NCBI RefSeq assembly: GCF_000264455.2
Contig: NC_017956.1
Location: 186,001 to 250,000 of the forward strand
DNA length: 64,000 nucleotides
From: Tistrella mobilis KA081020-065
GTDB lineage: Bacteria; Pseudomonadota; Alphaproteobacteria; Tistrellales; Tistrellaceae
Direction of reading: 5' to 3'
Shown here: positions 5,601 to 48,212 of the stretch, in pieces
How positions within the stretch are numbered: the stretch's first letter is position 1
Layout: every line of letters starts with the position of its first letter
The notes under the pieces: model-generated
Seen by the model: only the letters and a program-made list of their open reading frames with translations
What the model was told of the DNA's origin: nothing
Database searches by the model: none
Program-made: the position numbers and the translations under genes

Positions 5601-7212
5601 GCCCGGCTTCAAGGTGACGGTCGAGATCGCGAAGCTCCGGCATTCGACGCCGGGCGTGATGCTGATCTCGCCCCCGCCGCACCACGACATCTATTCGATC
5701 GAAGATCTGGCGCAGCTGATCTACGACCTGAAGCAGGTCAACCCCGATGCCGAGGTCTCGGTGAAGCTGGTCGCCCGCTCGGGCATCGGCACCATCGCGG
5801 CCGGCGTCGCCAAGGCCAATGCCGACGTGATCGTGATCTCGGGCCACAATGGCGGCACCGGCGCCAGCCCGCAGACCTCGATCAAATATGCCGGCGTGCC
5901 CTGGGAGATGGGCCTGTCCGAAGCCAACCAGGTGCTGACGCTCAACCGTCTGCGCCATCGGGTGCGGCTGCGCACCGACGGCGGCCTGAAGACCGGCCGT
6001 GACGTCGTCATCGCCGCCATGCTCGGTGCCGAGGAATTCGGCATCGGCACCACCTCGCTGGTGGCGATGGGCTGCATCATGGTCCGCCAGTGCCACAGCA
6101 ACACCTGCCCGGTGGGCGTGTGCACCCAGGATCCGGCGCTGCGTGCCAAGTTCGACGGCACGCCCGAGAAGGTGGTGAACCTGTTCACCTTCATCTCGGA
6201 AGAGGTGCGCGAGATCCTGGCCCAGCTCGGCGCCCGGTCGCTGAACGAAATCATCGGCCGGTCGGACCTGCTGTCGCAGGTCAGCCGCGGCAGCGCGCAT
6301 CTGGACGATCTGGACCTGAACCCGATCCTGGCCCAGGCCGATCCGGGCGATCTGCCCCGCTACTTCTCGCTGTCGGGCCGCAACCCGGTCCCCGACACCC
6401 TCGACGCGCAGATGATCGTCGACGCGGCGCCGGCCCTCAACGAGGGCGAGAAGATGCAGCTGACCTACAATGTGCGCAACACGCACCGGTCGGTGGGCAC
6501 GCGTCTGTCGTCCAAGATCGTCCGCCGCTTCGGCATGGACGGGCTGCAGCCGGGGCACATCACTGTGCGTCTGCGCGGCTCGGCCGGCCAGTCGCTCGGC
6601 GCCTTCGCCGTGCAGGGCCTGAAGCTGGAGGTGATCGGCGATTCGAACGACTATGTCGGCAAGGGCCTGTCGGGCGGCAGCATCGTGGTGCGTCCGCCCT
6701 TCGTGACCACCCGCAAGAGCAACGAGAACGTCATCATCGGCAACACCGTGCTCTATGGTGCGACCTCGGGCGAGCTGTTCGCGGCGGGCCAGGCGGGTGA
6801 GCGCTTCTGCGTCCGCAACTCCGGCGCCCAGGCGGTGGTCGAAGGCTGCGGGGCCAATGGCTGCGAGTACATGACCGGCGGCACAGTCGTGATCCTGGGC
6901 AAGGTCGGCCACAATTTCGGTGCCGGCATGACCGGCGGCATGGCCTTCATCTTGGACAGCGACGGCTCGTTCGAGCGCCGCGTGAACCCGGAAACGCTGG
7001 TCTGGCAGCGCATCGCCACCCCGCATTGGGAAGCGGTGCTGCGCGGCCTGATCGAGCGCCACGTGGACGAGACCAAGTCCGCCTTCGCCCAGAACCTGCT
7101 CGACGATTGGGATCGCACGCTCGATCGCATCTGGCAGGTGGTGCCGAAGGAGATGGTCTCGCGCCTCGAACACCCCCTGAACCCGGAAGAGGTCGCGGCG
7201 GTCACCGCCTGA
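2662..7212 (+). CDS. gltB: Glutamate synthase (NADPH) large subunit
   Basis: 1516 residues, full length. It hydrolyses glutamine at an N-terminal class II amidotransferase domain, tunnels ammonia to the FMN-containing synthase domain, and ends in a beta-helix domain. The nucleophile should be C38 in HDACGVG after removal of a 37-residue propeptide, as in other GltB proteins. The 3Fe-4S ligands are C1138, C1144 and C1149. The gene is tightly coupled to gltD. A start at 2662 with GGGAGA upstream fits the expected propeptide length. The opposite strand is open over nearly the whole gene, a composition effect of this GC-rich code rather than a gene. Confidence 0.98.
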   Translation: MSEIIRETAETFVAAWAANKAKLEAAHAYNPADEHDACGVGLVASIDGTPQRRVVEAGITALSNLMHRGAVDADGKTGDGAGIHLQIPKDFFREHIERTGHRMAEGSELAVGQVFLPRNDFGAQELCRTIVESEILELGYTIYGWRQVPVNTRAIGEKAAATRPEIEQIMIANDKGNGTVAFERDLYLIRRRIEKKVREASVADFYMCSLSSRSIIYKGMFLGEQLTVFYPDLLDERFVSNFVVYHQRYSTNTFPTWSLAQPFRMLAHNGEINTVRGNSNWMKSHETLMVSEVFGPAGEDIKPLIPQGSSDSGALDAVFEALCHAGRSAPLVKLMLVPPAWSKVPDVPEAHRSLYAYLNTVMEPWDGPAALAVYDGRWIAAGMDRNGLRPMRYAITADGLLVVGSEAGMVPLTDQDVIEKGRVGPGEILGVDLQEGKLYHDRALKDLLAAEHDYASWAGKTTRLGALIDQVPAPQPRFNADELRRRQLAVGLTIEDLELILHPMVEEGKEAVGSMGDDAPIAVLSSHYRGLHNFFRQEFSQVTNPPIDPLREEMVMTLDTRLGNLGNVFAQDESQMKILLLDSPVVTNRAYAAMRRYMKDRAVEIDCTMPAGAGEGVLKKALERIRREAEDAVRGGAEHIILTDERLDETNVAVPMILAAGGVHTHLVKQKLRTFCSVNVRSAECLDVQYMAVLVGVGATTINAYLAEETIYDRHRRGLFGDLTIDEAVSNFKHAADLGLLKVLSKMGISVISSYRGAYNFEAVGLSRSLVAEFFPGMSSRVSGIGLAGIERKTIRQHERGFQGGASILPIGGFYRYRAKGEAHGHDGRLIHMLQTAVASDSYTLYKKYAEGVRALPPIHLRDLLDFKTNRKPVPVDEVESITSIRKRFETPAMSLGALSAEAHETLTIAMNRIGAHSNSGEGGESRDRFQPRPNGDNANSGTKQVASGRFGVTTEYLNNCREIQIKVAQGAKPGEGGQLPGFKVTVEIAKLRHSTPGVMLISPPPHHDIYSIEDLAQLIYDLKQVNPDAEVSVKLVARSGIGTIAAGVAKANADVIVISGHNGGTGASPQTSIKYAGVPWEMGLSEANQVLTLNRLRHRVRLRTDGGLKTGRDVVIAAMLGAEEFGIGTTSLVAMGCIMVRQCHSNTCPVGVCTQDPALRAKFDGTPEKVVNLFTFISEEVREILAQLGARSLNEIIGRSDLLSQVSRGSAHLDDLDLNPILAQADPGDLPRYFSLSGRNPVPDTLDAQMIVDAAPALNEGEKMQLTYNVRNTHRSVGTRLSSKIVRRFGMDGLQPGHITVRLRGSAGQSLGAFAVQGLKLEVIGDSNDYVGKGLSGGSIVVRPPFVTTRKSNENVIIGNTVLYGATSGELFAAGQAGERFCVRNSGAQAVVEGCGANGCEYMTGGTVVILGKVGHNFGAGMTGGMAFILDSDGSFERRVNPETLVWQRIATPHWEAVLRGLIERHVDETKSAFAQNLLDDWDRTLDRIWQVVPKEMVSRLEHPLNPEEVAAVTA

Positions 7213-7288
7213 GGCGGACCCTCGCGGGGGCGGCCCCGGGGCCTTCGGGCCCGGACCTGAGGACGGGCCGGACGACGAAGACGGGAAG

Positions 7289-7320
7289 CGGCGGGCATCC
7301 GGAAGGGTGCCCGCCGTTTT
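7289..7320 (+). terminator. Rho-independent terminator of the gltDB operon
   Basis: A 12-bp stem (7289-7300 with 7305-7316, one G-U pair) with a GGAA loop, followed by TTTT. It separates gltDB from the glutamate dehydrogenase gene. Confidence 0.88.
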
Positions 7321-7478
7321 CGTTCAGGCGCAGCTGCCGTCACTCTCCAGCTGCGGAATTCCGGAACGACATTTCCTTTCAGTCCGATCGCGGGGCGGTT
7401 AAACCGCGCAAGGATCGGTCCTGCGACGGGCGGGGCCGGTTCTCTCTCGTAACCCCCGCAAAAGACTGGTGACATGAC

Positions 7479-8759
7479 ATGTTGGATGATGAACGCGGTC
7501 CGCTGCTTCGGCAGGCCCTCTCTCGTCTCGACGCGGCGGCCGCGTATCTCGACCTCGATCAGGACGTGGCGGAGAAGCTGGGTGCCCCCCGCGAGACCCT
7601 GAAGGCACGGCTGCTGATCCGGATGGACGACGGCAGCCGGCGGGCCTTCACCGCCTGGCGCTGCCGCTATGACGACACCCGCGGCCCCACCAAGGGCGGC
7701 ATCCGCTATCACCCCGCCTCGACCATGGACGAGGTGGAGGCGCTGGCCTTCTGGATGACCTTCAAATGCGCGGTGATGAACCTGCCCTATGGCGGCGGCA
7801 AGGGCGCAATCCGGGTGGATCCGCACGGCCTGTCGCGGGCGGAGCTGGAGCGGCTGTCGCGTGCCTATGTCCAGGCCTTCGCCGGCGTGATCGGGCCGGA
7901 GCGCGACATTCCGGCGCCCGATGTCTATACCGACGCCATGGTCATGGGCTGGATGGCCGATGAATACGGCTCGCTGACCGGTGCACCGGCGCCGGCGGTG
8001 GTCACCGGCAAGCCGGTGGCGCTGGGCGGATCGCTCGGCCGCGGTGACGCCACGGCCCGCGGCGGATGGTATCTGCTGCGCCATCTGGCTGCCCGGCTGG
8101 GTGTCGAGGACCAGCCCGGCCGCGTCCGGCGGGCGATCGTTCAGGGCTATGGCAATGCCGGCCGGCATATGGCCCGACTGCTGGCGTCCGACGGCTGGAC
8201 GATCGTCGGCGTTTCCGACAGCCGGGGTGCTGTGGCGGCACCCGGCGGTATCGATTTCGACGCGCTGGATGCCGCCAAGGCCCGGGGCGGGGTCGGTCTT
8301 CTGGAGGGGCCGGGCGTGCGCCGGGTCGATCCGGACGAGATCCTGGCCCTGGATGCCGAGTTGCTGGTGCCGGCGGCCCTGGAAGAGATGATCCATGCCG
8401 GCAATGTCCATCTGATCACGGCACCGGTGGTGCTGGAGCTGGCCAACGGCCCGGTGACGCCCGAGGCCGACGAAGTGCTGACTGCCCGCGGCATCACCGT
8501 GCTGCCCGACATCCTGGCCAATGCCGGCGGTGTCACGGTCTCGTATTTCGAATGGGTCCAGAACCGGCAGGGCTGGTACTGGGGCGAGGCCGAGGTGCAT
8601 GAGCGGCTGAAAGCGGCGATGGAACGGGAAGGCGACGCGATCGGCGACCGTGTCGCGGCTCTCGGCATCGACTGGCGGACCGCGGCCTATGTCCACGGTC
8701 TGGCGCGGCTGGCGGACGCCATCGCTGCCCACGGCACCCAGACCGATTTCCGCGGCTGA
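7479..8759 (+). CDS. Glu/Leu/Phe/Val-type amino acid dehydrogenase, probably glutamate dehydrogenase
   Basis: 426 residues, typical of the hexameric Glu/Leu/Phe/Val dehydrogenase family. The family reversibly deaminates an amino acid with NAD(P). The conserved lysines are seen: K72 in TKGGIRYHP, K96 in MTFKCA, and the catalytic K108 in YGGGKGA, followed by the PAPDVYTD segment and a Rossmann domain with GYGNAG. The length and the position next to glutamate synthase favour glutamate as substrate, but the family motifs alone cannot exclude a branched-chain amino acid. The ribosome site before the ATG at 7479 is weak (CTGGTGAC). It has its own transcription unit after the gltDB terminator. Confidence 0.9.
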   Translation: MLDDERGPLLRQALSRLDAAAAYLDLDQDVAEKLGAPRETLKARLLIRMDDGSRRAFTAWRCRYDDTRGPTKGGIRYHPASTMDEVEALAFWMTFKCAVMNLPYGGGKGAIRVDPHGLSRAELERLSRAYVQAFAGVIGPERDIPAPDVYTDAMVMGWMADEYGSLTGAPAPAVVTGKPVALGGSLGRGDATARGGWYLLRHLAARLGVEDQPGRVRRAIVQGYGNAGRHMARLLASDGWTIVGVSDSRGAVAAPGGIDFDALDAAKARGGVGLLEGPGVRRVDPDEILALDAELLVPAALEEMIHAGNVHLITAPVVLELANGPVTPEADEVLTARGITVLPDILANAGGVTVSYFEWVQNRQGWYWGEAEVHERLKAAMEREGDAIGDRVAALGIDWRTAAYVHGLARLADAIAAHGTQTDFRG

Positions 8760-11725: not shown

Positions 11726-12687
11726 CCGACCACCCCGCCGATCACGAGGCGACCGATCCCGTGGCCCTGCTTCGCCCTGTGGCGGGCCATGGAGGCCTGC
11801 TGTTCTGCTTCGGCCTCGGCTTTTCCGCCCGGGCGCTGGCCCGGGCCTGGATGGCGGCGGGCGGCCGGGTGGCAGGTACCTGCCGGAGCGCCGGCAAGCG
11901 CGATCAGCTGGTGGCCGAGGGGATCGCCGCGCATCTGTTCGACGGCAGCGAAGCGATGGACGCCGCAGGTCTCGCGGATCTGGGACGGGCCGTGGCGATC
12001 CTGTCTTCGGTCGGCCCCGATGCCGGGGGCGATGCGGTGATCCGGGTTCACGGGGCGGATATTGCCGCCGCAGCGGCAGCCGGTGCGGCACGCGGTGCCG
12101 CGCCCTGGATCGGCTATCTGTCGACCACCGGGGTCTATGGCGATCATGGTGGCGGCTGGGTCGACGAGACCACACCGACCATCGCCGCCGCCGGCCGGGG
12201 CGGCCGCCGGGTGGCGGCGGAACAGGCCTGGTCGGCGCTGGCGCCCGAGGCGCCGGCCCATCTCTTCCGGCTGGCCGGCATCTATGGCCCTGGTCGGTCG
12301 GCGCTCGATACGGTCCGCGCCGGACGGGCGCATCGGGTGGTGAAGCCGGGCCAGGTCTTCTCGCGCATCCATGTCGACGACATCGCCGCCGTGCTGGCCG
12401 CCTCGATCGCCCGCCCCGCCCCCGGGCGCGCCTACAATCTCTGCGACGACGAGGCAGCCCCGCCCCAGGACGTGATCCTGCATGCCTGCGAACTGCTGGG
12501 GGTGACACCGCCGCCGGAAGTGCCGTTCGAGGAGGCCGATCTCAGCCCGATGGCGCGCAGCTTCTACGCCGACAACAAGCGGGTGCACAACAACCGGATC
12601 CGCGAGGAGCTGGGCGTGCGGCTGAAATACCGCACCTACCGGGAGGGGCTGGCCGCCCAGCTTGCGGCGGAAGCGGCGCGCCGGTAG
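11722..12687 (+). CDS. NAD-dependent epimerase/SDR-like protein (YeeZ-like)
   Basis: 321 residues, overlapping the queG stop by four bases (ATGA), so translation is probably coupled. The protein is an extended-SDR-type Rossmann protein. The nucleotide motif is the divergent FCFGLGFSARALA instead of GxxGxxG, as in YeeZ-like proteins. The segment YLSTTGVYGDHGG holds the YxxxD-type region, and HVDDIAAVL is a conserved late motif. The substrate is unknown. The classical SDR YxxxK pair is not evident, so catalytic activity is uncertain. Confidence 0.85.
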   Translation: MTDHPADHEATDPVALLRPVAGHGGLLFCFGLGFSARALARAWMAAGGRVAGTCRSAGKRDQLVAEGIAAHLFDGSEAMDAAGLADLGRAVAILSSVGPDAGGDAVIRVHGADIAAAAAAGAARGAAPWIGYLSTTGVYGDHGGGWVDETTPTIAAAGRGGRRVAAEQAWSALAPEAPAHLFRLAGIYGPGRSALDTVRAGRAHRVVKPGQVFSRIHVDDIAAVLAASIARPAPGRAYNLCDDEAAPPQDVILHACELLGVTPPPEVPFEEADLSPMARSFYADNKRVHNNRIREELGVRLKYRTYREGLAAQLAAEAARR

Positions 12688-15423: not shown

Positions 15424-16644
15424 GTGCAATCGGACGATATTAGCAGCAAGCCCGCCCATGACCCAAACGACGGTCCTGTGACGCCCCCCGCGTCGGCCTT
15501 CCGGCCGCGCACCGTTCTTCAGGTGCTTCCGGCGCTGGGACCGGGGGGTGTGGAGCGCGGCACCGTCGACATCGCCGCCGGCCTGATCGCCGCCGGCTGG
15601 CGTGCCGTCGTGGCCTCGGCGGGCGGACCGCTGGCCGTGGAACTGGAGCGGCTGGGCGGCCGGCATGTCACCCTGCCGCTGGCGACGAAGCGCCCCTGGG
15701 CGATCCGCGCCAATGCCGGGCGGCTTGCCGATCTGATCCGGGAAGAGGGGGTCGACCTGGTCCATGCCCGCTCTCGCGCACCGGCCTGGAGCGCTTTTAT
15801 GGCGGCGGAGCGCACCGGCACCCCCTTCGTGACCACCTTTCACGGCACCTATGGTCACGGCAGCTGGCTGAAGCGCCGCTACAACGCGGTGATGACCCGC
15901 GGCCGGCCGCTGATCGCCATCTCGGACTTCATCGCCGACCATCTGCAGACGGTCTATGGCGTCGATCCGGCCGTGATCCGGACCATCCCGCGCGGGGTGG
16001 ATGTTTCGAAATTCCATCCGGCAGCGGTCTCGGCCGACCGCATCATCGCACTCGCCCGCCGCTGGCGGCTGGACGAAAGCCGGGCACTGATCCTGATGCC
16101 GGGCCGGCTCAGCCGATGGAAGGGGCATATCGTGCTGCTTGATGCGCTGGCCGAGCTTGGGCGGCGCGATGTGCAATGCGTGATGGTGGGCGCCGCCCCC
16201 GGCACCGAGAGCTACCGCGCCGAAGTCGAGCAGGCGATCCGGGATCGCGGGCTGGAAGATGTGGTGGGCATTGCGGATGCCGAACGCGACATGCCGGCGG
16301 CCTACATGCTCGCCGATGTGGTGGTGTCGCCGGCGACGGAGCCCGAGGCTTTCGGCCGGGTGCCGGTGGAGGCCCAGGCGATGGGCCGCTGGATCATCGC
16401 CACGGATCATGGTGGCGCGCGCGAGACCGTGGACACGAATATCGGCGGCATGCTTGTGCCGCCGGGGGATGCCGAGGCGCTGGCCCGGGCGCTGGGGCTG
16501 GCCCTGACCATGGATCCGAAGGCGCGGGCCGCTGCGGCGCGTGCGATGATCGCCCATGTCGACGGCCGCTTCACCCTTGCCCGGATGCAGGCATCCACGC
16601 TGGCGGTCTACGAGGAGGCGCTGGCCCGGGGGCGACCGGTATGA
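15424..16644 (+). CDS. Glycosyltransferase family 4 protein
   Basis: About 406 residues with the GT-B fold of family 4: an N-terminal acceptor domain with LPALGPGGVERGTV and a C-terminal donor domain with MPGRLSRWKGH and the EX7E region PATEPEAFGRVPVEAQAMG. Such enzymes add sugars from nucleotide donors to lipopolysaccharide or other glycans on the inner face of the membrane. The start is uncertain: GTG at 15424 has GGAG 12 bases upstream, GTG at 15478 lies closer to the conserved region, and the frame is open to 15316. The next gene overlaps its stop by four bases, which links it to LPS core assembly. Confidence 0.88.
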   Translation: MQSDDISSKPAHDPNDGPVTPPASAFRPRTVLQVLPALGPGGVERGTVDIAAGLIAAGWRAVVASAGGPLAVELERLGGRHVTLPLATKRPWAIRANAGRLADLIREEGVDLVHARSRAPAWSAFMAAERTGTPFVTTFHGTYGHGSWLKRRYNAVMTRGRPLIAISDFIADHLQTVYGVDPAVIRTIPRGVDVSKFHPAAVSADRIIALARRWRLDESRALILMPGRLSRWKGHIVLLDALAELGRRDVQCVMVGAAPGTESYRAEVEQAIRDRGLEDVVGIADAERDMPAAYMLADVVVSPATEPEAFGRVPVEAQAMGRWIIATDHGGARETVDTNIGGMLVPPGDAEALARALGLALTMDPKARAAAARAMIAHVDGRFTLARMQASTLAVYEEALARGRPV

Positions 16645-29434: not shown

Positions 29435-30181
29435 TCAGACCAGCGTCACCTTGCCGGTTGCGATGTCGTAGACCCCGCCCACCGCCTTGACACGGGTGTC
29501 GGCGATGGCCTGGGACAGAACCGGGGTTGCATCTGCCAGTGTGCTGAGGGTGTGGCGGACATTGCCGATGGTTGCATCGGCCAGCAGGTCTGCGGCCGGG
29601 CGGCCGGTCGCGGAGGACAGGACCACCGGCTCGATGCCCGGGCGCATGGCATCGATCAGGCCGGGCAGATGGCCGGGCAGGATGGTGCCGTTGCGGATGA
29701 CGTCGATGGTGGCGGAAACCGCGCCGCAGCCGGAATGGCCCAGCACCATCACCAGCGGTACGCCCAGCACGGCCACGGCATATTCCAGGCTCGCGATGCC
29801 GTCGTCATTGGCGAAATTGCCGGCCAGGCGCACGACGAACACCTCTCCCGGCCCCTGGTCGAAAGCAAGTTCCGGGGCGATCCGGCTGTCGGCGCAGGAG
29901 ATGATCGCCGCAATCGGGTATTGCGCCCGGGCGCGGGCGTCGCGGCCGGCCATGGGGTCGCGCGCTTCCGGTTTGCCCTCGGCCCAGCGGGCATTGCCGG
30001 CCATCAGCCGGGCCAGCGCGGCATCGCCGGTGACCACCGGCCGGGGCAGCGGATCGGCGGCCCAGGACGGTGCAGTACCGCCGACGGCGAGTGTGGTTGC
30101 CCCGGCGCCCAGCAGCCCCAGAAAGCTGCGGCGGCCGATCCGGGGATGTGAGGAGAGGTGGGGGGATGACGGGTGCGGCAT
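29435..30181 (-). CDS. Beta-class carbonic anhydrase with Tat signal
   Basis: 248 residues. The N-terminus has a twin-arginine signal (GRRSFLGLLGAGATTLAVGG, cleavage probably after SWA, residue 41), so the enzyme is exported folded to the periplasm. Zinc ligands are the Cys and Asp-Arg dyad in ISCADSR and the His and Cys in GHSGCGAV. It hydrates CO2 to bicarbonate. Most bacterial beta-class enzymes are cytosolic, and periplasmic ones are usually alpha-class. It is divergent from the PqqD-like gene. Confidence 0.92.
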   Translation of the reverse strand: MPHPSSPHLSSHPRIGRRSFLGLLGAGATTLAVGGTAPSWAADPLPRPVVTGDAALARLMAGNARWAEGKPEARDPMAGRDARARAQYPIAAIISCADSRIAPELAFDQGPGEVFVVRLAGNFANDDGIASLEYAVAVLGVPLVMVLGHSGCGAVSATIDVIRNGTILPGHLPGLIDAMRPGIEPVVLSSATGRPAADLLADATIGNVRHTLSTLADATPVLSQAIADTRVKAVGGVYDIATGKVTLV

Positions 30182-30379
30182 CAGCGTCGCTCCTTTGCCC
30201 TATCATGGTTGTGCGAGACCGAAGGCAGAGTGCGGCCGGGGTGCATCCGGCATTTTTCCGGCGGCCGATGCACTTGATCATGGCGCTTTGTCGCGTCGTG
30301 CTCGATATATTTCCCCATCAGAGGTCGCCGATCGTTCACCGGCCGACCCGCAGCCGCAGACGCACCAGAGGACGTTCCG

Positions 30380-30661
30380 ATGCCGATCACGCCCGAGACC
30401 ACCGTCACCCGCAATGACGATCTGATGATCGCCGAAATCGACGGCGAGGTTGTGCTGATGCATGTCGACAAGGGCAATTATTACGGCCTGGACCAGATCG
30501 GCTCCGACATCTGGGAGCGGATGGCCGGGCCGGTCTCGGTGGCCGATCTTCATGCCGCCCTGGTCGCCGATTACGAGGGCGATGCCGAAGAGATCCGTGC
30601 CGATCTGATGGAGCTTCTGGAGCGGATGGCCGAGCACGATCTGGTGCGCGTCGCCGCCTGA
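30380..30661 (+). CDS. PqqD-like peptide-binding (RRE) protein
   Basis: 93 residues covering the whole PqqD fold: an N-terminal beta-hairpin part (DDLMIAEIDGEVVLMHVDKGNYYGLDQIGSDIWERM), then three helices (VADLHAALVADYEG, EIRADLMELLERM). PqqD-like proteins are RiPP recognition elements that bind leader peptides and present them to a modifying enzyme. The sequence N-Y-Y-G-L-x-x-I-G-x-x-I-W is the strongest family signature. No pqqA, pqqE or radical SAM gene is near, so it is not PQQ synthesis. A GNAT gene follows after about 125 bases. The 55-aa peptide gene at 31830 is a candidate partner by inference. Confidence 0.88.
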   Translation: MPITPETTVTRNDDLMIAEIDGEVVLMHVDKGNYYGLDQIGSDIWERMAGPVSVADLHAALVADYEGDAEEIRADLMELLERMAEHDLVRVAA

Positions 30662-30786
30662 GTGGTCTCAGTCCGCCCCGCCGCGGGCGCAACTTCGCCT
30701 GGACGCAGACGACCGCTGCGTGGGATGGTTTGACGGCGTGGCCATGATGCATGGCCTCTCTCATCCCATCCGCCAGGCAGTGCCTC

Positions 30787-31368
30787 ATGTCCGAAACCAT
30801 GCCCGCCCCCGACCTCAGTTTCGAGATGCCGCCGGCGCTTGCAGCCCAAGGCTTCGCCGTCCGGCCGCGCACGCCCCAGGACACCGACTTCCTGCGCGAG
30901 CTGTACATCTCGTTCCGTTGGGCGGAACTCGAGGCCGCCGGCTGGCCCGAGGCCACGCGGCGCAGTTTCCTGGCCGATCAGTTCCGGCTGCAGGACAACC
31001 ACTACACCACCCATTACACCACCACCGCCTTCCTGATCATCACGAAGGACGGTGCGCCGGTCGGCCGGTTGTATATCGACCGGGGGGGCGCGCCCGAGAT
31101 CCGGCTGGTGGACATCATCCTGGTGCCGGCCCTCACCGGCCAGGGCATCGGCTCCGCCATCATCCGCGTGCTGCTGGACGAAGCCGCGCGCACCGGCCGC
31201 TATATCGGGCTGCACGTGGAAAGCTACAACCCGGCCCGGCGGCTGTATCAGCGGCTCGGCTTCGTCGATCGCCGGCTGGAAGGCCCCTATTTCTATATGA
31301 GCTGGGGGGATTATCCCACCGATGCCGAGACGGTCGCCGGAGAGAGGGCTCAGCTGAACACGATCTGA
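30787..31368 (+). CDS. GNAT-family N-acetyltransferase
   Basis: 193 residues. The acetyl-CoA binding motif A is VDIILVPALTGQGIGSAII (Q/R-x-x-G-x-G/A form), followed by HVESYNPARRLYQRLGF, a normal GNAT C-terminal motif. It acetylates an unknown amine, either a small molecule or a protein N-terminus. The ATG at 30787 (MSETMPAPD) is chosen; 30751 and 30799 are alternatives. Its 3' end overlaps the convergent DUF6916-like gene by 19 bases. It lies between the PqqD-like protein and the tail-collar proteins, where GNATs are, from memory, common neighbours. Confidence 0.88.
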   Translation: MSETMPAPDLSFEMPPALAAQGFAVRPRTPQDTDFLRELYISFRWAELEAAGWPEATRRSFLADQFRLQDNHYTTHYTTTAFLIITKDGAPVGRLYIDRGGAPEIRLVDIILVPALTGQGIGSAIIRVLLDEAARTGRYIGLHVESYNPARRLYQRLGFVDRRLEGPYFYMSWGDYPTDAETVAGERAQLNTI

Positions 31369-31661
31369 TACCGCACCGTCCCGTCGGGATTGCGGCCGAT
31401 CGGCACCATGAACAGGCGCATCTGGCCCATGGTTTCGTGCGACAGCAGAACCTCCTGACCGTCGATGGCGATATCCGTCCGGCTGCCGTCCAGAAACAGG
31501 CTGAACCGTTCCCGAGCGAAGCTCGGCAACGGAGGCTTACGGGTCACGCTTTTAAGCGTGAGTCGTTCGATCAGAACCCCTGCTTCGCCCGAGGGGATGT
31601 CGAAGGGGTGGGCGGCAGCGGCTTCGAATTCGTCGGCGGTAAGATCCATGAGGGATCGCAT
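31350..31661 (-). CDS. DUF6916-like protein
   Basis: 103 residues, all soluble. The pattern LTADEFEAAAAHPFDI, then FSLFLDG, and the end MRLFMVPIGRNPDGTVRYQIVF match the small all-beta family I know as DUF6916, whose members sit beside phage-tail-collar (MdpB-like) genes. No catalytic residue is evident. The start at 31661 has AGGA six bases upstream. It is convergent with the GNAT and divergent from the 55-aa peptide gene. The family name is from memory and was not searched. Confidence 0.8.
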   Translation of the reverse strand: MRSLMDLTADEFEAAAAHPFDIPSGEAGVLIERLTLKSVTRKPPLPSFARERFSLFLDGSRTDIAIDGQEVLLSHETMGQMRLFMVPIGRNPDGTVRYQIVFS

Positions 31662-31829
31662 GATTGTTCCTTCATGTGCGCTTTTTGGGCTGTTTTATCG
31701 ACAATTCGTCAGATATTATCGCCCAGGTGTAGTATAGTACACGATGCGGCGTCCGGAAGCCGTTCTTGTTGGCTTACCGGTTGCGCTTCTGGTTCTCTCA
31801 TGTAGTGATGCAAGCGTACGGGGTGCCCT

Positions 31830-31997
31830 ATGGAAGAAAATCGTAGCGAATTCTGCCGTGTTAGTGGCACGCCCGCTGATGCGGAGAGTGTGTGCGCAAC
31901 TTGGCGGAAGCCTGTTTTGGTTGTCGAAGGGACGGGGACGATCACTTTGGGTAATTTCTATGTGACAAATACTGACGGTGATTATAGTAACTCCTGA
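31830..31997 (+). CDS. 55-aa precursor-like peptide with W-x-x-P-x-L motif
   Basis: An ATG at 31830 with GGGG six bases upstream opens 55 codons ending in TGA at 31997. The peptide is acidic and soluble. Trp25, Pro28 and Leu30 form W-R-K-P-V-L. A Thr lies nine residues after the Leu (T39), followed by a Gly (G41) and a Thr/Gly/Asn/Tyr-rich end (GNFYVTNTDGDYSNS). W/Y-x-x-P-x-L is a leader motif bound by PqqD-like proteins in lasso-type peptides, and a PqqD-like gene lies 1.2 kb away. A strong terminator 59 bases downstream supports a real monocistronic gene. Product and modification are not known; this is not a database match. Confidence 0.6.
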   Translation: MEENRSEFCRVSGTPADAESVCATWRKPVLVVEGTGTITLGNFYVTNTDGDYSNS

Positions 31998-32055
31998 GGC
32001 TCATGCCCTTTTGGAGGCGTAAAGAACATTTGAACGGCGTTGCATTTACTTCGAG

Positions 32056-32085
32056 GCTCGCGCTCTCTGGAGCGCGGGCGTTTTT
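32056..32085 (+). terminator. Terminator of the 55-aa peptide gene
   Basis: A 10- to 11-bp stem with G-U pairs (32056-32066 with 32069-32079) and a short loop, then GTTTTT. It ends transcription of the small gene before the tail-collar genes. Confidence 0.85.
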
Positions 32086-32297
32086 CTATGTTTGCGAATA
32101 AGACGCAATGCGAGCCCATTTAATATTTTGTGGGCACTTAATTTGTTTGCGTCTGTTAGTTGAGCGTTCTTTAATCTATCGGTGTGGCAGCCGGTTGCAT
32201 GCAAAAGCGACACGCCCTGGTGTCTGCTGGGGGTTCGAAGGTTGCATTCATTCTACGGCCCACAATGTTTGTTTGATCCCCGCGAGGATGACGGACG
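32086..32297. other. AT-richer spacer before the tail-collar genes
   Basis: No gene is supported. The stretch is clearly poorer in G and C than the backbone, with TTTAATATTTTG and TTCTTTAATC, and should hold the promoter of the three collar genes. A 5-bp repeat, GCCCA at 32113 and TGGGC at 32131, could form a small hairpin. No good -35/-10 pair was found. Confidence 0.45.
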
Positions 32298-32855
32298 ATG
32301 GATCCTTTCATTGGAGAAATCCGCATCTTTCCGTTCGGTTTTGCGCCGACCGGTTGGTTGCCCTGTGAAGGCCAGGAACTGCAGGTAAGCCAGAATCAGG
32401 CGCTTGCCGCTCTGCTCGGAAACACCTATGGCGGCAACTGGCCAACCACGTTCAAGTTGCCGGATCTGCGCGGTCGCGCTCCTCTGGGGCAGGGCCAGCA
32501 CAATGGCTTCTCCTACAGCATGGGGAATGCCATCGGCAGCCAGACCGTAACGCTGACGGTCGGCCAACTGCCCCAGCATACCCATACGATGTCCGCCTTG
32601 AGCACCGAGGGCACGCTGCCCCTGCCGACGACGTCCACGGGCATCACCACACTGCTCGCCAACTCACGTGAATCGGGCTCCCAGCCGGATGGGCCTGAGA
32701 TTTATCTTACGCCGCCTCCGACGGCGACTTTGACGCCGCTCCGTCCCGAGGCGGTGTCCTCCACCGGTGGCGGCCAGGCGCATCCTAACGAGCAGCCCAG
32801 TCTCGCGGTGTACTACTGCATCGCGACCACCGGGCTGTGGCCGCCGCGGTCCTGA
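32298..32855 (+). CDS. Tail-collar domain protein 1 (MdpB-like)
   Basis: 185 residues. It begins with FIGEIRIFPFGFAPTGW, then CEGQELQVSQNQALAALLGNTYGG, then FKLPDLRGRAPLGQG, the phage tail collar domain (PF07484) as in microcystin-dependent protein MdpB. The conserved P-x-H-x-H (PQHTHT) follows the VTLTVGQ strand, and the end HPNEQPSLAVYYCI matches its two neighbours. There is no signal peptide. In phages the domain caps tail fibres; in bacteria the role of these short proteins is unclear. No capsid, tail-tube or sheath gene is near, so this is not a phage module. Confidence 0.92.
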   Translation: MDPFIGEIRIFPFGFAPTGWLPCEGQELQVSQNQALAALLGNTYGGNWPTTFKLPDLRGRAPLGQGQHNGFSYSMGNAIGSQTVTLTVGQLPQHTHTMSALSTEGTLPLPTTSTGITTLLANSRESGSQPDGPEIYLTPPPTATLTPLRPEAVSSTGGGQAHPNEQPSLAVYYCIATTGLWPPRS

Positions 32856-32945
32856 ACCCGACCATCATCTCTGCGGCCGGGCATGCAATCACCGGATCGG
32901 TGTGCACAACCGGTTGATAGATCTTCATCGACAGGATGAGACATC

Positions 32946-33497
32946 ATGGACGGATTTCTGGGCGAAATCAGGATGTTCGCCGGCAATTACGCGCCGGAAG
33001 ACTGGGCGATCTGCAACGGCGCGCTGCTGCCGATCGTGGGTAATGAGGCACTGTACTCGCTGCTCGGCGTCAAGTACGGCGGCGACGCGGTGACCAACTT
33101 TGCGTTGCCGGATCTGCGCGGCCGGATGGCGGTGCATGCCGGACAGGGGCCGGGCATGCCGTTTCCGCATCCGCTGGCGCAGCAATTCGGCAGCGAGACG
33201 GTGACGCTGACCGAGGCGATGATGCCGGCGCACAGCCATAGCTGGCAGACCTATCCGCAGCCCTCGGCCACCGAGGCGCCCCAGGCGCAGATGCTGGGCA
33301 CCAATGTGCCGACCAGCACGGCGCCGACTTTTGCTGGTATCTACAGGACCACGGCGCCGACGTCGACCAATGTCGGACCGATGGCGTCTCAAGTGATCGG
33401 GTCGACCGGGCTCGGCGGCGCGCATGCCAATATTATGCCGGGGCTGGTGATCAGCTTCATCATTGCCCTGAAGGGCAATTACCCGACCCGTCCGTGA
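32946..33497 (+). CDS. Tail-collar domain protein 2 (MdpB-like)
   Basis: 183 residues, paralogous to its neighbours: FLGEIRMFAGNYAPEDW, CNGALLPIVGNEALYSLLGVKYGG, FALPDLRGRMAVHAGQG, VTLTEAMMPAHSHSW, then HANIMPGLVISFIIALKG. The last strand lacks the Cys and Gln-Pro of the other two, so it has diverged most at the C-terminus. It starts 90 bases after gene 1, and the third follows after 13 bases; the three are probably cotranscribed and may form a mixed trimer. Confidence 0.92.
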   Translation: MDGFLGEIRMFAGNYAPEDWAICNGALLPIVGNEALYSLLGVKYGGDAVTNFALPDLRGRMAVHAGQGPGMPFPHPLAQQFGSETVTLTEAMMPAHSHSWQTYPQPSATEAPQAQMLGTNVPTSTAPTFAGIYRTTAPTSTNVGPMASQVIGSTGLGGAHANIMPGLVISFIIALKGNYPTRP

Positions 33498-33510
33498 GGA
33501 GAAGGCGATC

Positions 33511-34071
33511 ATGGCAGATCCGTTTTACGGTGAAATCCGCGCATTCACGTTCGCCTTCGCGCCGGCAAACTGGGCGTATTGTGCCGGTCAGGAGGTTCAG
33601 ATCCAGCAGTATCAGGCCCTGGCGGCTGTGATCGGTACCATGTATGGCGGCAATCTCAGTCAGAACAAGATCAACCTGCCCAATCTGCAGGGCCAGGTGG
33701 CGGTCGGGTCGGGAACCGGTGTCGGGTTGACGCCACGCACCGTCGCGCAGCAGATCGGGACCGAGACCGTGACCTTGTCGATCTCACAGATCCCGCCCCA
33801 CACTCACACAGCCCAGGCACTCAACGAAACCGCCACAAGTGATCAGACACTGACCCCGTCAGCCACGGCAATGCTCGGGCGTACCGCGAATGCTGCCCCC
33901 TATGCCCAGTATCCAAACCCGCTGCCGTCGCCCTCGCCGGTAGTGATGATGGATGTGCGCAGCCTGACCCAGGTCGGCAGCTATCAGGCGCATGAAAACC
34001 GGCAGCCGGCGCTGACGCTGAATTTCTGCATCTGCGTGTATGACGGGTTCTTCCCGGTCCGGCCGTCCTGA
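33511..34071 (+). CDS. Tail-collar domain protein 3 (MdpB-like)
   Basis: 186 residues: FYGEIRAFTFAFAPANW, CAGQEVQIQQYQALAAVIGTMYGG, INLPNLQGQVAVGSG (the family Asp-Leu-Arg-Gly-Arg is here Asn-Leu-Gln-Gly-Gln), VTLSISQIPPHTHTAQ and HENRQPALTLNFCICVYDG. It has the same fold, with the basic DLRGR site replaced, which may separate its binding from the other two. It ends the three-gene run, followed by a hairpin at 34093. Confidence 0.92.
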   Translation: MADPFYGEIRAFTFAFAPANWAYCAGQEVQIQQYQALAAVIGTMYGGNLSQNKINLPNLQGQVAVGSGTGVGLTPRTVAQQIGTETVTLSISQIPPHTHTAQALNETATSDQTLTPSATAMLGRTANAAPYAQYPNPLPSPSPVVMMDVRSLTQVGSYQAHENRQPALTLNFCICVYDGFFPVRPS

Positions 34072-47170: not shown

Positions 47171-47851
47171 TCACCCAAGCCAGAGGGTGAAGTTATAGCG
47201 ATGCCAGTCTGCCGGAACATCGCGCAGCGGATCGACGCCATGCGACTGATCGGCATCGACATCGAAAAGGATCGCCCGATTGGGCAAAGGGTCGATGACC
47301 CGTTCCCCCCGGGCGGTGAAGACGCGAAAGGTGCCCCCCATGCCGGGGTGCCAGTCATCATTGAAATAAAGCAGCAGACAAAGTCTGCGTTCCGAGGCGC
47401 GGTCGTCATGCCGGGTGGAAAAATCATCCCGGCCCATGCGCCGGACCAACAGATCGGCGATCGCCCCGGTGTCGATGCCGGTCAGTGTGCCAAGCCAGTG
47501 CCTGAAGTCGGCGCGGCCGGCCAGGAGTTTGAAACCCACGATGGCGAGCATGCCGGGCGCCAGCTCCCGGCCCTTCTTGGGGGCCCGATAGTTTCCGTGA
47601 CGGAACAGGCGCCGATCCGCCGGGGTGGCATTGAACCGTTCGGCCGAGGTCAGTTCGCCGCTGGCGTCGACCCCATAATGGGTCGTCCAGTCGCAATCCG
47701 TCCGCAGACCCTGGGAGATCCGCGCATATCGCTCTGGCAGCAGGACATCGTCCAGTATCAGCATGCGGACCGGGTCCGCTTCGAAATCGGCGCGCAGCTT
47801 TGATGTCCGCGTGTCATCGAGGTAGATGGGATTGATCCACTTTTCCAACAT
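47171..47851 (-). CDS. 2OG-Fe(II) oxygenase (prolyl-hydroxylase-like)
   Basis: 226 residues. The C-terminal half is a P4H-type jelly roll: iron ligands H148 and D150 (RHDD), LCLLLYFNDDWHPGMGGTFRV, H204 in QSHGV, and R218 in HRYNFTLW, which should hold 2-oxoglutarate. Such enzymes hydroxylate proteins, peptides or amino acids. It starts at 47851, with AGGAGA 13 bases upstream, and is divergent from the 55-aa peptide gene at 48045, an obvious candidate substrate by position. It could equally act on a ribosomal protein or free amino acid. Confidence 0.88.
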   Translation of the reverse strand: MLEKWINPIYLDDTRTSKLRADFEADPVRMLILDDVLLPERYARISQGLRTDCDWTTHYGVDASGELTSAERFNATPADRRLFRHGNYRAPKKGRELAPGMLAIVGFKLLAGRADFRHWLGTLTGIDTGAIADLLVRRMGRDDFSTRHDDRASERRLCLLLYFNDDWHPGMGGTFRVFTARGERVIDPLPNRAILFDVDADQSHGVDPLRDVPADWHRYNFTLWLG

Positions 47852-48044: not shown

Positions 48045-48212
48045 ATGAGCACGAGCATTGAACAGGTTGGCAAGCAGGGTGAGGCGACGGCCGATGTGAC
48101 GAGGGCTTCCGTGAAGCGGGTGTGGTCCGCACCACAGTTGCAGTGCGTGGACCTCGACGTGGTCACCCGGGCGCAGGCCGGTATCACTGGCGATGGGATC
48201 ACCGTCTCCTGA
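48045..48212 (+). CDS. 55-aa precursor-like peptide with W-x-x-P-x-L motif
   Basis: ATG at 48045 has GGGAG seven bases upstream and opens 55 codons to TGA at 48212. The N-terminal half is hydrophilic. Trp27, Pro30 and Leu32 form W-S-A-P-Q-L, then Thr41 nine residues after the Leu, and a Gly/Thr/Asp-rich end (AGITGDGITVS). The spacing is the same as in the peptide encoded at 31830, which is also 55 residues. A perfect 13-bp terminator hairpin ten bases downstream supports a real gene. The motif is that of leader peptides bound by PqqD-like proteins. It may be modified by the divergent 2OG oxygenase. Function is inferred only. Confidence 0.65.
   Translation: MSTSIEQVGKQGEATADVTRASVKRVWSAPQLQCVDLDVVTRAQAGITGDGITVS

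Follow-up and report, generated by a model that had tools for sequence, protein, structure and literature searches.

A probable lasso-peptide locus of split type joined to a phage-fibre-like collar module in Tistrella mobilis

We analysed a stretch of 64,000 nucleotides from Tistrella mobilis KA081020-065 (contig NC_017956.1, positions 186,001 to 250,000; hereafter the window, from whose first letter positions are counted), in which genes of apparent lasso-peptide type lie beside genes for phage-fibre-like collar proteins. The group opens on the forward strand, which carries all the features below unless stated, with a PqqD-like protein (30380-30661; PF05402, 68.5 bits against a cut-off of 23.4), apparently a stand-alone recognition element (RRE) for ribosomally synthesised and post-translationally modified peptides (RiPPs). 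It continues with a GNAT acetyltransferase (30787-31368; PF00583, 43.7 bits; start chosen by eye, the longest open reading frame (ORF) running from 30751) and a DUF6916 protein encoded on the reverse strand (31350-31661; PF21880, 67.2 bits, cut-off 27). An ORF of 55 amino acids (31830-31997) comes next, with a terminator-like hairpin and T run on its 3′ side (32053-32085), recognised from folding and sequence; the hairpin (32053-32082) gave -21.3 kcal/mol for the 55 bases folded, with no shuffle comparison. Three collar proteins, assigned by PF07484 (cut-off 24) at 80-90 bits, close the group: position 1 at 32298-32855 (90.4 bits, with an HxH motif in LPQHTHT), position 2 at 32946-33497 (89.9 bits) and position 3 at 33511-34071 (80.4 bits). 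The middle of the group is poor in GC, with 0.49-0.53 in four 300-base segments over 31550-32299 against 0.59-0.74 outside about 31400-32450 in the stretch profiled. An earlier reading of the letters alone, here called the original prediction, had named all these genes at these places, including the W-x-x-P-x-L motif (here WRKPVL) of the 55-residue ORF, and had rightly noticed the GC-poor middle.

The 55-residue ORF has recognisable features of a class II lasso precursor, and the PqqD-like protein reads as one of lasso B1 type. Divided into a predicted leader (residues 1-40) and core (residues 41-55), the C-terminal part of the peptide is ...WRKPVLVVEGTGTITL/GNFYVTNTDGDYSNS, in a register with W(-16)RKP(-13)VL(-11), T(-2), G1, D9 and a C-terminal Ser and with a predicted ring from G1 to D9. 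T39, G41 and D49 thus stand where a lasso precursor has T(-2), a small first residue and an acidic residue at 7-9. According to the passages of PMC10368454 and PMC8498205 that we used, lasso precursors in the literature carry YxxPxL at -17 to -12 as well as T(-2) and have a ring from G1 to D8; the same passages report that kinases act on the C-terminal Ser of lasso peptides and that the kinase-bearing kind often ends in Ser, as the window precursor does. A strict precursor pattern, drawn up once the first precursors had been seen, matched 2 of 505 small ORFs in the window and none of 9,845 in 66 collar loci without lasso genes, which marks the 55-residue ORF as something other than a random frame. 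In the whole genome, a profile built from 27 precursors found the ORF at E 4e-9, the ORF being itself one of its rows; among NCBIfam models it gave a weak rhodolasso match (E 0.09), and its relatives surface by position and motif only. For the PqqD-like protein, the best NCBIfam model was lasso_PqqD_Bac (69.7 bits, under its cut-off of 80), and the nearest solved chains were 9x90_B, a 'lasso peptide biosynthesis PqqD family chaperone' (E 1e-11), and TbiB1, 5v1u (E 3e-11). An authentic PqqD of pyrroloquinoline quinone (PQQ) synthesis was rejected for this gene on the NCBIfam profile matches; what looks by eye like a PQQ operon lies elsewhere (L102). The proposals of the original prediction that the peptide resembles a RiPP precursor, that PqqD resembles an RRE and that W-x-x-P-x-L is the recognition motif are supported. 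Its 'undescribed peptide system' can be given a name: in its anatomy the peptide matches a class already known, the lasso peptides.

The low-GC middle is a swapped precursor segment, replaced wholesale inside collinear flanks. We compared the window's genome (G000) with another of the same species (G058), one of the same genus (G001) and one of another family (G096); the region is collinear in G001 and G058. The DNA of G058 is 90.2% identical to the window over 29435-31678 and from 32276 on, and between these aligning flanks the segment 31679-32275 (GC about 0.5), with the precursor inside, has no blastn similarity to it. The G058 segment also carries a precursor (...WQAPILTVRTANALTL/GADTYLSDGVDGVVS), and that of G001 holds a different small ORF with W-x-K-P-x-L (...WSKPLLLIEHASKETQ/GGGAPSDEVPEYLS), followed by its own hairpin. 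Within the species the core changes completely while the collars of the two genomes remain 90-93% identical; the B1 protein is 98.9% identical in G058 and G001, and the collar and DUF6916 frames are open in all three genomes. A swap of this kind is what a peptide diversifying on a conserved platform should produce. The DUF6916 and collar proteins of G001 are 51-67% identical to those of the window, with PqqD, GNAT and the four downstream proteins compared at 89-99%, and those of G096, the genome of another family, are 78-85% identical, so that the DUF6916-collar block has also been exchanged.

As judged from gene labels, the collar trio, with the GNAT and often with DUF6916, recurs next to lasso genes in many unrelated bacteria. 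The original prediction had taken a lack of recurrent linkage as an outcome that would speak against it; we found PqqD, a motif-bearing small ORF and collars together again in other genomes. In a survey of 385 alphaproteobacterial genomes, DUF6916 occurred in 15 (13 over the family cut-off), lasso B2 (PF13471) in 35 (33 over cut-off) and Collar in 56 (54 over cut-off). B2 was present in 9 of the 15 DUF6916 genomes and 7 of their 13 genera (Fisher p 5e-7 by genome, three of them being of one genus). Taking as an array two or more collar matches close together, we counted 29 arrays in 20 genomes (one within a single ORF, one on a contig of only 3.8 kb), and lasso genes or a precursor lay near 13 of them: the present locus in G000, G058 and G001; arrays in G013, G040, G043, G051, G096, G164 and G270; one of the two in G354; and a further trio in each of G001 and G058. 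B2 lay within about 6 kb of six of the 29 arrays, against 0.09 expected within 11 kb, and was found in 13 of the 20 array-bearing genomes against 35 of 385 overall. At the further trios of G001 and G058 (L218, 10066-10230; L219, 8732-8965) a lasso-type precursor stands just upstream of the collars, by 42 bases in L219, and the stretch fetched shows no label of a lasso enzyme.

Eighty collar loci, drawn separately from among the matches listed, point the same way. AsnB, PqqD and HprK occur together in 14 of them (12 if only the 50 loci at least 20 kb long are counted), with B2 in 10 of the 14 and a sulfotransferase in 13; these loci come from Pseudomonas, Xanthomonas (five), Sphingomonas (three), Niveispirillum, where the precursor DNA is the same as in G270, Asticcacaulis, and metagenome-assembled genomes of Magnetospirillum, Wallbacteria and Proteobacteria. 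Pfam searches with representatives confirmed Asn_synthase, Sulfotransfer, Hpr_kinase_C and Transglut_core3. When small ORFs outside labelled genes were selected solely by W..P.[LIVM] and length (one locus being present twice, as L149 and L070), intergenic ORFs ended in Ser in 13 of 16 cases from 24 lasso-collar loci and in 1 of 6 from the 66 non-lasso loci; with frames that overlap other ORFs retained, the counts were 24 of 43 and 5 of 47. The precursor of L210 carries W-I-A-P-L-Q and was missed by the strict pattern.

The partners of the collars do not depend on the presence of lasso genes. Such a GNAT is found in 64 of the 80 collar loci, 12 of the 14 with lasso genes and 52 of the 66 without; DUF6916 is present in 35, 3 of the 14 and 32 of the 66. 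Because it occurs in those 52 loci, the GNAT goes with the collar module, and the idea in the original prediction that it modifies the peptide finds no support; we likewise do not favour it as a lasso-tailoring enzyme. In collar loci without lasso genes we found no conserved small peptides beyond DUF6916 and short frames that are apparently antisense or due to chance. A tree of the collars was drawn from 81 three-collar arrays (243 proteins); loci with any other number of collar ORFs, 14 of the 80, were excluded. Labelled by position in the array, it needs 29 changes against 115 in shuffles, a contrast inflated by near-copies, and the classes are not strict clades. The five nearest rows to collar 1 of the window are all of position 1, those to collar 2 all of position 2, and collar 3 falls within a set, starred on the tree, of 34 position-3 rows and one position-2 row, its nearest rows being of position 3. 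The trio thus appears to represent, for the most part, three ancient paralogue classes that have stayed together; this points towards a heterotrimer. HxH, a motif that occurs in phage fibre tips, is found in 226 of 228 collar ORFs. The predicted structure of the DUF6916 protein is mostly beta (mean predicted local distance difference test score, pLDDT, 86). No significant fold match was obtained for it by Foldseek (best E 0.04, to Hcp5, in the PDB and 0.02 in a viral library), and its best VIA-align Z of 7.5, to the N-terminal domains of MrkH and YcgR, is under the line of 8, in a range where a match may reflect no more than a common arrangement.

Lasso equipment is encoded elsewhere in the genome, as the B2 and all AsnB matches of genome-wide searches fall outside the window and no complete cluster exists in cis. 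G000 has one PF13471 match at E <= 0.001, on contig C3 (L086, 9688-10212), which scores 73.4 bits with NF033537 against an equivalog cut-off of 33 and keeps the CLPQAL and AHAW stretches. This B2 is the sole labelled lasso gene within the 19.5 kb fetched around it, stands equally alone in G001 (L087) and G058 (L088), and is 94-96% identical among the three genomes. A second B2 candidate, found in L099 with a home-made profile (E 3e-4), turned out to be FxsA, and weak labels of such profiles are therefore not trustworthy. Among 13 AsnB-family matches, eight are akin to the cyclases of fuller clusters (one weakly) and five have a PqqD in their locus; the lasso cyclase model NF033535 was the best NCBIfam model for both genes tested, below its cut-off. 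HprK-like genes, some weakly matched, also lie elsewhere in the genome, none of them at the locus. At E <= 1 the precursor profile gave 27, 24 and 21 matches in G000, G058 and G001. By inspection we retained 22 candidate precursors in G000 (nine profile rows, eleven found by the profile, and two, in L099 and in an array on contig C2, by motif), a count that leaves out seven further profile matches, uninspected. Ser is the last residue of 20 of the 22, and 19 combine T(-2) with an acid at 7-9 if W may stand anywhere from -14 to -17; three of these sisters are matched by NCBIfam lasso models, one over cut-off. The C2 array (L258) comprises five precursors and two more downstream (6972-8299, 12085-12291 and 16128-16274), with residue 1 varying among G, E, I, F and S, mostly D8, and no lasso enzyme label in 19.5 kb; G058 has a similar array (L262). 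Neither the B2 region nor the precursor array had a match among plasmid records.

Taken together, we consider it very probable that a split lasso-peptide locus and a phage-fibre-like collar module are joined here. B1 would bind W(-16)xxPxL of the leader and pass the precursor on to the B2 encoded on another contig, which would cleave between L40 and G1, just past T(-2); a cyclase from among the AsnB-type ones encoded elsewhere would then close the ring from G1 to D9, and an HprK-like kinase, also encoded elsewhere, may phosphorylate the C-terminal Ser. What the collars do is a far more tentative matter. They may form a heterotrimeric, metal-binding fibre tip, with N-termini perhaps acetylated by the GNAT, that binds the finished peptide outside the cell or at its surface as a carrier, display or neutralising partner; we regard this as a possibility well short of an even chance. 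More speculative still is the complete scheme, in which a three-part body derived from phage fibres (collar classes 1-3, with GNAT and DUF6916 helping) would carry or display lasso peptides and be fed by about 22 interchangeable precursors through a single shared B2.

A number of results weigh against this interpretation. In the whole window no AsnB cyclase, B2, HprK or sulfotransferase is labelled, and since cyclase and B2 are missing there, supply in trans must be assumed, with several AsnB genes as candidate cyclases. The genome has ten PqqD-family matches, one of them in the apparent PQQ operon; that of the window lies 1.2 kb upstream of the precursor, with two genes between, and could serve another. 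The window peptide reaches the cut-off of no NCBIfam lasso-peptide model, and a protein search with it returned matches at E <= 1 in 26 of 58 genomes, the best in the 57 other genomes, at 0.064, not being significant. Because precursors were picked by a motif containing W and P, these two residues do not count as independent evidence. Among lasso-collar loci, only 9 of 14 and 5 of 10 yield a precursor to the strict pattern; none was seen in the gaps looked at in G096, which has collars, GNAT, DUF6916 and lasso genes, or in L132, and loose scans gave chance candidates in the non-lasso loci L066 and L072. The predicted collar structure is good for residues 11-60 only and poor after that (mean pLDDT 59.6). 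Finally, 66 of the 80 collar loci have no PqqD, AsnB or B2 label. Of 42 B2 places listed in alphaproteobacteria, 40 were inspected: six have collars and 34 have none in the stretch fetched, on contigs that are in several cases short. Neither partner, then, needs the other.

The 66 collar loci without a lasso label lend some weight to the view that collars and lasso genes, unconnected in function, are neighbours merely because both travel in variable chromosomal slots of one type. Ten of the 80 collar loci have, in place of lasso genes, a family of large proteins (with cadherin-like repeats in the one representative tested), and the exchange of collars and DUF6916 between families would fit a slot of this sort. 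However, the tie recurs, with the genes variously arranged, in Pseudomonas, Xanthomonas, Sphingomonas, Niveispirillum, Asticcacaulis and others, the proximity of B2 to arrays is far above chance, and a precursor also sits immediately before the second collar trio, where no lasso enzyme is labelled. We therefore hold mere neighbourhood to be improbable, with a claim that still deserves attention. Could the trio instead protect the producer, sequestering the peptide rather than carrying it? The close linkage of collars to a precursor at two places in G001 and G058 would suit such a role, as would the collar N-termini, at which no signal stretch is evident by eye. Nevertheless, collars that are conserved while the core changes completely within a species are ill-suited to be a core-specific antidote, and we find this role unlikely.

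A decayed remnant of a complete lasso cluster, having lost cyclase and B2 and left precursor, B1 and collars without function, would account for the missing labels in the window, and fuller clusters with collars do exist elsewhere. Decay is, however, difficult to reconcile with a B1 that is nearly identical in three genomes, with collar and DUF6916 frames that are intact in all of them, with a slot holding a different intact precursor in each, with a further trio and lone precursor in two of the three, or with the conservation of the lone B2, and we give it little credence. Equally little speaks for the small ORF being a precursor of another RiPP class that shares an RRE and AsnB-like enzymes and is not threaded, since the agreement of T(-2), ring acid and leader spacing with lasso precursors, the NCBIfam matches of three sisters and the presence of B2 alongside the remaining lasso genes at 10 of the 14 collar loci that have them stand against the predicted first residues I, F, E or N of several sisters (uncommon in known lasso peptides), the 2 of 22 not ending in Ser, the 3 of 22 without T(-2) and the sub-cut-off AsnB genes.

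How does a lasso locus joined to collars compare with known systems? The literature excerpts used here already describe lasso peptides associated with HprK, sulfotransferase and split B proteins. The phosphorylated, HprK-type peptides in them (paeninodin, pseudomycoidin, those of a Sphingobium yanoikuyae cluster and BsfA of Bradymonas) share the leader motif, T(-2) or a variant, the ring acid and mostly a C-terminal Ser; their clusters share with the fuller collar clusters split B1/B2, an AsnB cyclase, an HprK-like kinase, and sulfotransferase or nucleotidyltransferase genes. In contrast, the precursor and B1 of the window stand without B2 or cyclase and have the collar trio, GNAT and DUF6916 attached. 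Albusnodin-type acetylated lasso peptides, again as described in excerpts, have an acetyltransferase near the precursor, whereas the GNAT here follows collars whether or not lasso genes are there. Prochlorosin-type trans systems use one enzyme for many scattered precursors. The present genome resembles them in that a single B2 gene was found for 22 candidate precursors, many of which have no lasso label beside them; it differs in its lasso rather than lanthipeptide chemistry and in having several cyclases and B1 proteins instead of one enzyme.

On the collar side, the shared domain links these proteins to phage tail collar proteins (PF07484), T4 gp12-like short fibres and the microcystin-dependent protein family. 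The window collars have weak profile matches to the solved fibres 8kec (E 1e-6), 9cuy and 1ocy, and PHROGs tail families match them along part of much longer fibre profiles. Unlike phage fibres, they are free-standing proteins of 183-186 residues, come in threes of distinct classes and have GNAT and DUF6916 as partners. The annotated neighbours of the locus encode carbonic anhydrase, cytochrome b561 and cytochrome c', with no phage gene among them, the annotation for phage genes not extending to the rest of the window, and DUF6916 and PqqD have no PHROGs match; a prophage remnant is rejected on these grounds, in agreement with the original prediction.

Among the matches listed, no literature was found that links lasso peptides to collar proteins or gives a function for the module of GNAT, collar trio and DUF6916, and none was found that names DUF6916. 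The lasso passages of PMC8498205 and PMC10368454 do not mention collars, and a table of PMC10040529 lists a lasso B2 and a tail fiber protein in different rows. Lasso peptides are usually sought as compact clusters, and therefore lone precursors beside fibre-like genes, or arrays without enzymes, would be missed. A collar body of the kind considered above would, if real, be the first protein delivery vehicle for lasso peptides known to us. Similarly, some 22 precursors served by one B2 would be, to our knowledge, the first trans-acting many-precursor lasso system, a layout that we have not searched for in the literature by its own terms. If the collars bind the peptide, this would be a new use for phage-like fibre tips and might account for the site of action of phosphorylated lasso peptides. 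The conserved platform with its swapped peptide is a natural experiment on the recognition target of the peptide, and the widespread GNAT, collar trio and DUF6916 module is offered a testable role.

Collars are also found in other surroundings. The large-protein family is a second collar context, and at L002, L061, L066, L071, L072, L074 and L134 collar genes, most with DUF6916, adjoin genes for very large proteins. At L166 (6083-7896) a collar locus has genes for an aspartyl/asparaginyl hydroxylase and a sulfotransferase-like protein, and relatives of one or both occur in L147, L152, L155, L179 and L180. At L065 (8430-10584; contig C9 of G354) a 377-residue ORF labelled DUF6916 overlaps another long frame beside collars.

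The window holds a second lasso-type precursor at 48045-48212, 16 kb from the main locus and beyond the bounds of the original prediction; it is counted among the 22 candidates of the genome. It fits the strict pattern, with a predicted core AQAGITGDGITVS and a predicted ring from A1 to D8, and the precursor profile, of which it is itself a row, finds it at E 2.5e-12 (G000:C1:234045); neither Pfam nor NCBIfam gave a match, and no other lasso label adjoins. Divergent from it, on the reverse strand (47171-47851), is a gene for a 2-oxoglutarate-Fe(II) oxygenase (PF13640, 54 bits), a possible tailoring enzyme.

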